Source of the DNA: Pseudomonas lalkuanensis
GTDB lineage: Bacteria; Pseudomonadota; Gammaproteobacteria; Pseudomonadales; Pseudomonadaceae
Direction: 5' to 3'
DNA length: 64,000 nt
Assembly (NCBI RefSeq): GCF_008807375.1
Contig: NZ_CP043311.1
Span: 1,840,001-1,904,000, forward strand
Shown: piece after piece, positions 12,884 through 59,855 of the stretch
How positions within the stretch are numbered: position 1 is the stretch's first letter
Layout: the number at the start of each line of letters is the position of its first letter
The notes under the pieces: generated by a model
Database searches by the model: none
What the model was told of the DNA's origin: nothing
What the model saw: the letters and a program-made list of their open reading frames with translations, nothing else
Translations under genes and position numbers: made by a program

Positions 12884-12920
12884 CTGTGAGAGCGAATTCA
12901 TTCGCGATTGAAATCGCCCC
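12884..12920. repeat. Dispersed GAATTCATTCGCG repeat, copy 1
   Basis: An intergenic copy of a Pseudomonas-type dispersed repeat (TGTGAGAGCGAATTCATTCG, then CGATTGAAATCGCCCC). Related copies in this window are at 36298, 50331, 52686 and 57660. It lies between the rluB terminator and the convergent diguanylate cyclase stop. Confidence 0.75.
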
Positions 12921-57659: not shown

Positions 57660-57683
57660 GTGGGAGCGAATTCATTCGCGATG
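57660..57683. repeat. Dispersed GAATTCATTCGCG repeat, copy 5, overlapping a stop codon
   Basis: GTGGGAGCGAATTCATTCGC. The copy overlaps the last codons and TGA of the small Ada-like gene on the complement, so the repeat supplies its C-terminal residues (HRE-stop). Confidence 0.75.
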
Positions 57684-57929
57684 AGCCTTCCACTCCCGAT
57701 ATGCGTCTTTCATGCACCGCGCACAAGGCCGATATCCCGCTGCTTGCGCGGTCGCTGCATCGAGAAAGAACACCCGCTCCTTCACATAGCCGCCCCGTGC
57801 GATGGCGCGCAGGGCGGTGGGGCAGTCGAGGCGGCCGTAGATGCGCGACGTGCGGTGCCCACCCAGGGTTCCGGGAGCGGGGCTGGGGTATGGCCTCCCG
57901 TCTGCTCCCAGCAGGGTCCAGGCTTTCAC
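57672..57929 (-). CDS. Small Ada-like metal-binding domain protein
   Basis: An 85-residue protein resembling the N-terminal zinc domain of Ada. The stretch RTSRIYGRLDC aligns with Ada RTTGIYCRPSC, and FFLDAATAQAAGYRPCARC aligns with the second Ada cysteine pair. It retains Cys36, Cys69 and Cys72, but Gly replaces the methyl-accepting Cys38 of E. coli Ada. Its GTG start overlaps the ada stop (GTGA), so translation is coupled. Function untested. It ends inside a dispersed repeat, and its original C-terminus may have been longer. Confidence 0.8.
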   Translation of the reverse strand: MKAWTLLGADGRPYPSPAPGTLGGHRTSRIYGRLDCPTALRAIARGGYVKERVFFLDAATAQAAGYRPCARCMKDAYREWKAHRE

Positions 57930-58990
57930 CCCCCGGCCTCGAGCTCCAGCAGGCGGCGCTTGCGTTCCACACCCCAGCGGTAGCCGGAGAGGTTGCCGTC
58001 GCTGCGGACCACCCGATGGCAGGGGATGGCCACTGCCAGGCTGTTGGCTGCGCAGGCCTGCGCCACGGCGCGTACCGCGCGGGGCGAGCCGATGCGCTCG
58101 GCGATTTCCGCATAGCTCGCGGTACTGCCTGGGGGAATCTCCCGCAGAGCCTGCCAGACCCGTTCCTGGAAGGCCGTGCCGCGTACGTCCAGCGGCAGGT
58201 CCAGGCCCAGCCTGGGTGCTTCGATGAAGCCGATGACCTTGGCCACCAACTGCTCGAAGCAGCTGTCGCCGCCGATCAGGCGTGCGCGGGGAAACTTGTC
58301 CTGCAGGTCTCGCAGCAGCGCATCCGGGTCATCGCCCAGGAGGATGGCGCAAACACCGACGCCGCTCTGCGCCACCAGGAAGTGGCCCAGGGAGCATTCG
58401 CCCAGGGCAAAGCGGATCTCGTTGTTGGCACCGCCGGCGCGGTAGTCGGCCGGCTTCATGCCCAGCACCTGGGCCGAGTCGGCGTAGAAGCGGCTGTTGG
58501 AGTTGAAGCCGGCGTCGTAGATCACCTCGGTCACCGAGGCGCCCGGACCCAACTGGTCACGCACCTTGCGGGCGCGGCGGGCGCGGGTGTAGGCCTTTGG
58601 GGTCAATCCGGTGACCGCCTTGAACACCCGGTGGAAATGCGAGGCACTCATGCCCGCCGATTCGGCCAGGGCTTCCAGGCCGGGTAGTTCCTCGGCGCTT
58701 TCGATCTGCCGGCAGGCGGCTGCAACCAGCGCCGCGTGCTGCTCGGCCACGTGGGTCATGCTGGCTGCGGCGCGACGGCTGGGGCGATAGCCGGCTGCCT
58801 CGGCCTGCTCGGCGCTGTCGAAGAACTCCACGTTCTCCGGACGCGGCAGGCGGGTCGGGCTGCTGGGGCGGCAGTAGATGCCGGTGGTCTTCACCGCGTA
58901 GACGAACTGCCGGTCGGCGGCCGGGTCCCGTGCCTGCACGGCGGCCCAGCGCGGGTCCTGTTCGATGGTGGTCGTGGCTGCGGGCTTCAT
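57926..58990 (-). CDS. ada: Ada: AraC-type activator / O6-methylguanine-DNA methyltransferase with degenerate zinc site
   Basis: A 354-residue Ada, the same length as E. coli Ada, from the ATG at 58990 with GGAGAG upstream. Order: N-terminal domain (1-80), AraC HTH domain (about 90-180, including MSASHFHRVFKAVTGLTPKAY), and methyltransferase (190-354) with acceptor Cys324 in IPCHRVV. In the N-domain only Cys40 (E. coli Cys38, the phosphotriester methyl acceptor) remains. The other zinc ligands are replaced: Ser44 in YCRPSS, and Ser71 and Ala74 in GYRPSRRA. How methylation activates it is therefore unclear. It follows the 2OG oxygenase gene and overlaps the small zinc-protein gene. Confidence 0.9.
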   Translation of the reverse strand: MKPAATTTIEQDPRWAAVQARDPAADRQFVYAVKTTGIYCRPSSPTRLPRPENVEFFDSAEQAEAAGYRPSRRAAASMTHVAEQHAALVAAACRQIESAEELPGLEALAESAGMSASHFHRVFKAVTGLTPKAYTRARRARKVRDQLGPGASVTEVIYDAGFNSNSRFYADSAQVLGMKPADYRAGGANNEIRFALGECSLGHFLVAQSGVGVCAILLGDDPDALLRDLQDKFPRARLIGGDSCFEQLVAKVIGFIEAPRLGLDLPLDVRGTAFQERVWQALREIPPGSTASYAEIAERIGSPRAVRAVAQACAANSLAVAIPCHRVVRSDGNLSGYRWGVERKRRLLELEAGG

Positions 58991-59044: not shown

Positions 59045-59073
59045 CGTGCATCCCGACTCTTGCGGTCGAATTC
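59045..59073 (-). promoter_or_regulatory. Candidate Ada box upstream of ada
   Basis: On the minus strand it begins GAATTCGACCGCAAGAG. It is 22 of 29 identical to 59827-59855. It ends 55 bases before the ada ATG, with a CATACT -10-like hexamer at 59025-59030. It lies just after the oxygenase stop, giving ada its own promoter. Confidence 0.55.
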
Positions 59074-59075
59074 GT

Positions 59076-59774
59076 TCAGAGCGCGTCATGGAAGATCACC
59101 CCCAGGGTATGTCGCCTGCCGCCCCGCAGCTGGCTGACGCCGTGGCGCAGGCGGACCCTGTGGTAGCCGCGCAGGCCCTGCGCCGGGCGGAAGTTCACCG
59201 CGAACAGCACGCCATCGCCGAGGCCCAGGGGCACCACCTGCACCCGCGATTGCATGCGCGGGCGCTGCTCGGTGATGACGAACTCGCCGCCCTCGAAGTC
59301 GCGGCCGGGCTCGGACAGCAGCACCGCCAGTTGCAGCGGGAAGACCTGCTCGCCATAGAGGTCCTGGTGCAGGCAGTTGTAATCGCCTTCGACATAGCGC
59401 AGCAGCAGCGGGGTAGGGCGCAGCTGGCCGGCGGCGTGGCAGTGCTCGAGGAAATCGGCGTGTTCGGCGGGAAAGCTGCCTTCCAGGCCCAGGCGCTCGT
59501 GCCAGAGGTTGGCCAGCGGCGCCAGACGCGGGTAAAGGCGGGTGCGCAGTGTGGCCACCAGCGGCGGCAGCGGGTAGTCGAAGTACTGGTATTCGCCCTG
59601 GCCGTAACCGTGGTTGGCCATGCGGATGCGCGAGCGGAAACGCGCCTGCTCGCCATAGAGGTCGGCCAGCGCCGCGCATTCCCGCGGATCCAGCAGTTGG
59701 CGGACCAGGGCCCAGCCGTCGCGGTCGAGGTCCGCCTCGATACGTGGCCAGTCCAGGCTGTCGATGGCTTTCAT
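59076..59774 (-). CDS. 2OG-Fe(II) oxygenase family protein
   Basis: A 232-residue dioxygenase with the iron triad His136-x-Asp138 (CLHQDLYGEQ) and His211 (LRHGVSQ); Arg221 would bind 2-oxoglutarate. It is not AlkB by sequence, but such genes commonly accompany ada in Pseudomonas and may act in alkylation repair or a linked stress response. Transcribed towards ada with 85 bp between them. A box like that of ada lies 53 bases before its start. Confidence 0.85.
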   Translation of the reverse strand: MKAIDSLDWPRIEADLDRDGWALVRQLLDPRECAALADLYGEQARFRSRIRMANHGYGQGEYQYFDYPLPPLVATLRTRLYPRLAPLANLWHERLGLEGSFPAEHADFLEHCHAAGQLRPTPLLLRYVEGDYNCLHQDLYGEQVFPLQLAVLLSEPGRDFEGGEFVITEQRPRMQSRVQVVPLGLGDGVLFAVNFRPAQGLRGYHRVRLRHGVSQLRGGRRHTLGVIFHDAL

Positions 59775-59826: not shown

Positions 59827-59855
59827 GGGGCACTCCGTCGCTTGCGCTCGAATTC
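59827..59855 (-). promoter_or_regulatory. Candidate Ada box upstream of the 2OG oxygenase gene
   Basis: On the minus strand it begins GAATTCGAGCGCAAGCG, including AGCGCA as in the E. coli Ada box AAAGCGCA. TATGCT at 59805-59810 is a possible -10 at almost the same distance as in the ada copy (45 versus 43 bases). Confidence 0.55.

Follow-up and report, generated by a model that had tools for sequence, protein, structure and literature searches.

The window analysed here is a stretch of 64,000 nucleotides (nt) from the 6.06-Mb genome of Pseudomonas lalkuanensis (NZ_CP043311.1), and all coordinates refer to it. It contains the gene ada and, overlapping its end, a gene for a small Ada-like protein, and the products of the two divide between them the four cysteines that correspond to the zinc site of E. 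coli Ada. This complementarity is real as a pattern, and it is most simply explained by two distinct protein families that happen to meet here, each of which probably works alone in one alkylation-repair regulon without sharing a zinc atom. The interest of the locus lies in a zinc-less class of Ada and in an uncharacterised three-cysteine protein rather than in a split sensor.

Complementary zinc positions in two overlapping genes

The ada gene (57926..58990, minus strand) encodes a protein of 354 amino acids with a cysteine-poor Ada_Zn_binding domain (PF02805), an AraC-type helix-turn-helix domain (PF12833) and an O6-methylguanine methyltransferase domain (PF01035), and its product scores 448.6 bits against NCBIfam PRK15435 (cut-off 345). 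The small gene (57672..57929, minus strand) starts with GTG and encodes 85 amino acids with a three-cysteine Ada_Zn_binding domain; the overlap between the genes is 4 nt long, GTGA, the GTG start of the small gene lying over the TGA stop of ada. Both proteins match PF02805, with 103.2 bits for Ada and 34.6 bits for the small protein (cut-off 23), and they are the only matches in the genome.

Aligned to Cys38, Cys42, Cys69 and Cys72 of E. coli Ada, the window Ada carries Cys40 (codon at 58871..58873), Ser44 (58859..58861), Ser71 (58778..58780) and Ala74 (58769..58771); the four-cysteine set is absent and only Cys40 is kept, together with the DNA-contact arginines R47 and R73. At the same positions the small protein has Gly32 (57834..57836), which takes the place of the methyl acceptor Cys38, followed by Cys36 (57822..57824), Cys69 (57723..57725) and Cys72 (57714..57716), all these codons being on the minus strand. 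An earlier note on this DNA had read the residues in the same way, and they are fixed in close relatives. In alignments of each protein with its 120 nearest relatives (n = 121 each), C40, S44 and S71 of Ada and G32, C36, C69 and C72 of the small protein are each present in 121/121 sequences, and position 74 of Ada is Ala in 102/121. The small gene is under purifying selection, differences at codon positions 1, 2 and 3 numbering 31, 39 and 153 (totals over 50 codons for 10 of the 11 relatives, one being left out). Its 3' end overlaps AATTCATTCGCGA at 57669-57681, of which further copies occur at 12895, 36314 and 52688 and which looks like a piece of a short dispersed repeat.

A single clade of cysteine-poor Ada proteins

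In a tree of 111 Ada proteins, whose rows were picked by hand, the 49 cysteine-poor proteins form a single clade, and the division between four-cysteine proteins and the rest requires 1 change (branch support 99/91), which indicates that the zinc ligands of Ada were lost in a single event. The small gene is scattered within this clade, at least 6 changes being needed on the tree, and is missing from its first branches, G143, G018 and G035, which read AASL, CASA and AASV at the four positions; one row, L058 (genome G195), was assumed to be without the small gene, its genome having 2 PF02805 matches. Given one loss and first branches devoid of the small gene, the loss of cysteines from Ada likely preceded the small protein and did not need it.

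Co-occurrence was counted in 148 Pseudomonadaceae genomes. In these, Ada was searched at E <= 1e-40 and no more than 14 candidates were scored in any one genome, cysteine status was read on full-length Ada of at least 35% identity (leaving out G045, G127, G138 and G044, at 32-34%) and the small gene was called at 90 bits or more. Cysteine-poor Ada was found in 36 of these genomes and the small gene in 20, all of them among the 36; the remaining 16/36 lack it.

The PCHR motif is present in 49/49 cysteine-poor proteins, and its cysteine in the window Ada, Cys324 (58019..58021, minus strand; invariant in A3 and A4, our designations), is by homology the C-terminal methyl acceptor. Predicted operator boxes were found at the own promoter in 48/51 cysteine-poor ada loci, that of the window being the Ada-box site AATTCGACCGCAA (59060..59072, minus strand; pattern and matrix score), 69 nt before the ada ATG. 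Since it keeps R47, R73, a box at its own promoter and Cys324, the window Ada is likely still an autoregulated activator.

Two side observations concern Ada itself. The Cys38 equivalent is also missing from three cysteine-poor proteins, L229, L232 and L235 (GSSA, AASV and AASL), the operator box being kept in two of these loci and none being found for L235 in its 201 bases. In one Pseudomonas genome bearing the small gene, a second Ada-like frame is broken by an in-frame TGA (L350; G421:C4:91040-91380).

The small protein outside the cysteine-poor Ada clade

The small-protein family is widespread (4588 matches); in evenly drawn Pseudomonadota the gene is rare, occurring in 2/398 genomes (E <= 1e-15), one of them P. 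lalkuanensis itself. The three cysteines and Gly32 are kept in 84/84 genomic loci. For gene neighbours and co-occurrence with Ada we sampled 80 loci, the best 80 of 505 confirmed matches listed; they are biased to close relatives and include near-duplicates (L090 and L123 are from the same genome), and phyla are as we read them from the record titles.

Genomes with a cysteine-poor Ada account for just 23/80 of these loci, all in Pseudomonadota. The three remaining loci of that phylum, in two Nevskia (L149, L327) and a gammaproteobacterial metagenome-assembled genome (MAG; L290), are in genomes where a four-cysteine Ada alone was read. No cysteine-poor Ada was seen for the 54 non-Pseudomonadota loci (53 genomes), and the same three cysteines also occur in genomes where the Ada read is of the SCCC type; in some actinobacterial genomes the cysteine reading did not extend to the weaker PF02805 matches, at about 42-50 bits. 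A second PF02805 match was not found in 13 genomes bearing the small gene, as judged on assemblies of which 9 are MAGs by title or isolate name; the named strains among them are Rhodococcus aetherivorans, Neobacillus rhizophilus, Oerskovia rustica and Tetrasphaera australiensis. In one further genome, G594, a CSSG Ada adjoins the small gene. On the strength of the 54 loci without cysteine-poor Ada and the 13 genomes without a second PF02805 match, the three-cysteine small protein exists independently of cysteine-poor Ada.

In some actinobacterial Ada-like domains (L164, L322, L328, L341) Ser takes the Cys38 position while all three (SCCC) or two (SCCR) of the remaining cysteines are kept, a pattern that resembles that of the small protein.

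Association with alkylation-repair genes

An alkylation-repair gene lies directly upstream (at most 150 bp) of the small gene in 61/80 loci, all from Actinomycetota or Pseudomonadota. Of these neighbours, 44 encode a PF09859 oxygenase, 11 Ada, 4 AlkA and 2 Ogt; the other 19 loci have none of the four. Among the 54 loci outside Pseudomonadota the numbers are 40 for the oxygenase, 1 for Ogt and 13 for none, and among the 26 within it 11 for Ada, 4 each for the oxygenase and AlkA, 1 for Ogt and 6 for none. Pfam assignments of ten neighbours, two of them (L284, L286) outside the 80 loci, gave five PF09859 proteins, three HhH-GPD glycosylases, one Ogt and one unrelated PIG-L protein (L099). In addition, five Pseudomonas small-gene loci (L103, L120, L121, L129, L139) have a box-like site before alkA or ogt, with scores of 12.7 to 21.9. 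The repair-gene neighbours and these sites make the small gene part of an alkylation-repair set in the two phyla.

The cluster in the window, on the minus strand, runs from a PF09859 (Oxygenase-NA) gene through ada to the small gene. The oxygenase gene (59076..59774) is the sole match to its family in the genome (277.7 bits) and is preceded by the Ada-box site AATTCGAGCGCAA (59842..59854, minus strand; pattern and matrix score), 67 nt before its ATG. H136, D138 and H211, predicted to be iron ligands, are kept in 59/60, 55/60 and 60/60 related open reading frames.

Predicted fold and zinc site of the small protein

The AlphaFold2 model of the small protein has an N-Ada-like fold (predicted local distance difference test score, pLDDT, 78), and its three top Foldseek matches are N-Ada entries (best E 0.01); that of Ada is weak beyond the N-terminal part (mean pLDDT 65, predicted template modelling score 0.36). 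By homology, Cys36, Cys69 and Cys72 of the small protein are predicted to bind zinc. When likely ligand positions were counted over the 84 loci, no invariant fourth protein ligand was found, the three cysteines alone being present in 84/84; a separate fourth ligand, which the earlier note had named as evidence against a shared site, was thus not seen among the positions counted. His25 occurs in 78/84 loci (otherwise Tyr in 3, Gln, Asn or Thr) and Asp35 in 81/84; as neither is invariant, we rejected both in the role of a constant fourth ligand. We also rejected a cysteine donated by the oxygenase: C112 is common there (55/60), but nothing was found that ties it to the small protein. With Gly32 at the nucleophile position and no constant side chain to complete the site, zinc held by the three cysteines would have an exchangeable fourth position.

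Weighing the explanations

From the observed conservation, gene order, box sites and tree we infer, as regards zinc, partner binding, switch residue and chemistry, the following explanation. The Ada clade, in which at least three of the four cysteines of the zinc site are missing, would have stayed an autoregulated activator that uses Ada boxes, and would be switched on by methylation of Cys324 during O6-methylguanine repair, as reported for Caulobacter Cada2, and not through a zinc-bound Cys38. The small protein belongs to a stand-alone three-cysteine Ada-like family, and it is predicted to hold zinc through Cys36, Cys69 and Cys72, with Gly32 in place of the nucleophile; the fourth position would go to water, to a thiol or to a side chain that varies between members, frequently His25. 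It would probably assist direct-repair enzymes at methylated DNA, a role suggested by the position of its gene, most often behind that of the PF09859 oxygenase and in other loci behind ada, alkA or ogt. As its relatives lie behind other alkylation-repair genes in most of the 80 sampled loci, and turn up in genomes in which no other Ada zinc domain was detected, the small protein is likely a separate repair helper and not one half of Ada.

Several observations weigh against this explanation. The co-variation of the small gene with degenerate Ada implied by a shared site, absent outside Pseudomonadota, does hold in Pseudomonadaceae, where 20/20 genomes with the small gene have a cysteine-poor Ada and 0/112 of the genomes outside the cysteine-poor set carry the small gene (Fisher 3e-15); 17/20 of the former belong to one genus, and outside that genus the proportions are 3/18 vs 0/112 (p = 0.002). 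Likewise, 23/26 sampled Pseudomonadota loci are in genomes with a cysteine-poor Ada. Cys40 is kept in most cysteine-poor Ada proteins though it has no obvious role without zinc; it is retained in 20/20 Pseudomonadaceae genomes with the small gene vs 13/16 cysteine-poor genomes without it (p = 0.08). The analogy to Cada2 is partial, as Cada2 is wholly without the A-box domain. As to the repair link, none of the four genes (for Ada, oxygenase, AlkA or Ogt) lies in the 150 bp before the small gene in 19/80 loci, or anywhere in the locus DNA examined in 13/80. Every one of the 8 sampled loci assigned by title to phyla other than Actinomycetota and Pseudomonadota (L073, L083, L097, L109, L111, L132, L136 and L137) is among the 19, so that the link is seen in two phyla only. 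Finally, at three (L122, L128, L133) of eight Pseudomonas loci away from ada, no box was found near the small gene. Since both genes co-occur in 20/20 Pseudomonadaceae genomes, Ada and the small protein may be in contact within this family or this genus.

Among the alternatives, the one that survives best, and which we regard as possible if clearly less probable, is that sensing by the zinc-less Ada still depends on Cys40, whose free thiolate would be methylated directly, either by small alkylators or, with no zinc involved, by phosphotriesters; its wide retention would then find a use, but three clade members have Ala or Gly there, and two of these have kept the box. It is unlikely that the small protein has no repair role and is a zinc ribbon that binds DNA structurally or merely hitch-hikes, as the 13/80 loci with none of the four repair genes in the DNA examined, among them Bacillota and Chloroflexota, might suggest: in 61/80 loci, from Actinomycetota and Pseudomonadota, the gene lies directly behind a repair gene, and it is under purifying selection. 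More speculative still is an extension of our preferred explanation in which the small protein would do with turnover what the methyl acceptor of Ada does once, by suicide. Glutathione, mycothiol, bacillithiol or a cysteine of a partner protein would bind as the thiol ligand at its Zn(Cys)3 site, left open by the invariant Gly32, and would take methyls from the DNA backbone again and again; in Actinomycetota and Pseudomonadota the protein would work alongside the PF09859 oxygenase, with the zinc-less Ada sensing via its C-terminal cysteine; we give this little credence. Very improbable, finally, is the two-chain sensor put forward in the earlier note, in which Cys40 of Ada would complete Cys36/69/72 of the small protein in trans and the joint zinc would sense methylphosphotriesters: the exactly complementary ligands, the 4-nt overlap, the retention of Cys40 in all 20 Pseudomonadaceae genomes and the lack of an invariant fourth ligand speak for it, yet 16/36 genomes with cysteine-poor Ada have no small gene, the small protein is unchanged in genomes where four-cysteine Ada alone was read, as in Nevskia, and in the 13 genomes in which no other PF02805 match was found, the tree puts one Ada loss ahead of at least six changes in the small gene, and, as Cys38 sits inside the Ada domain, part of that domain would probably have to make way for a second chain. 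The alternative offered in the same note, that Ada has lost phosphotriester sensing and the small protein does other work, fits better.

Relation to known systems

With E. coli Ada (1u8b, 1zgw, 1adn, 1sfe) the window protein shares domain order, fold, A-box arginines, A/B-box operators and the C-terminal PCHR acceptor; it differs in being without three of the four zinc ligands, and members of its clade may also lose the Cys38 equivalent. The small protein is a member of the stand-alone PF02805 proteins ('Ada metal-binding domain-containing protein'), with Gly at the nucleophile position and three of the four cysteines of the PF02805 site; the Oxygenase-NA protein, its commonest direct upstream neighbour, is a different protein. 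A resemblance is also offered by betaine-homocysteine methyltransferase, an unrelated protein. In that enzyme a three-cysteine zinc coordinates the substrate thiol (PMC4101490), and this Zn(Cys)3 with a free fourth position is resembled by the pattern of the small protein, which has three invariant cysteines and no invariant fourth protein ligand and for which zinc is predicted and a thiol substrate would be hypothetical.

Cada2 of Caulobacter, as described in a 2024 study, shares with the window Ada the character of an Ada-type regulator without a four-cysteine zinc site; the PCHR cysteine, reported as the switch in Cada2, is the predicted one here, and the Cada2 response also induces the predicted 2-oxoglutarate dioxygenase gene ccna_00745, an oxygenase gene being present in the window cluster (PMC10957082). 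In contrast, Cada2 has no A-box domain and carries an RLHD motif, whereas the window clade has the A-box domain and A boxes, with RLHD in 0/49 proteins. That study states that the four-cysteine A-box is conserved in all its EcAda-like regulators and absent from all Cada2-like ones (PMC10957082). The cysteine-poor clade is a third arrangement, with the full EcAda architecture and operator boxes but without zinc ligands, and if the Cys324 switch is true, sensing could shift from the DNA backbone to O6-methylguanine with the operator unchanged.

Our literature searches found no study of a stand-alone three-cysteine Ada metal-binding family, no work at title level on Ada without zinc ligands and, judged by titles and the starts of abstracts, nothing relevant on PF09859/Oxygenase-NA/DUF2086. 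The small protein, being widespread, following alkylation-repair genes in two phyla and having no study that we could find, is a candidate new component of direct repair.

Ada-box sites and oxygenase copies

The number of AAT-N6-GCAA sites in the window is ordinary, 5 being observed vs 3.67 expected and 31/100 shuffles reaching 5. Two of the five are on the coding strand, before ada and the oxygenase gene, and in a matrix built from related boxes these score 24.6 and 22.3, the next window site scoring 12.0. The whole genome holds 5 copies of AATTYRANNGCAA (3 of the reversed pattern), two of them at this locus. A third AATTCGAGCGCAA site in the P. lalkuanensis genome (L354; G000:C1:4069517-4069529) lies 90 nt before a gene that, from the look of its start sequence, reads like the NAD-dependent DNA ligase gene ligA.

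E. coli Ada uses a single box. Before some cysteine-poor ada genes there are inverted pairs of Ada boxes with a 12-bp spacer (L085 4785-4822, L102 4097-4134, L107 4089-4126, L094 4162-4199, L287 4696-4733 and upstream of ada in L229); one arm is weak in L107, L094 and L287. Such pairs would suit a dimer. Two PF09859-like oxygenase genes are present in L084, L094, L102, L107, L286 and L287, and in these loci the copy directly before the small gene diverges more from the window oxygenase.
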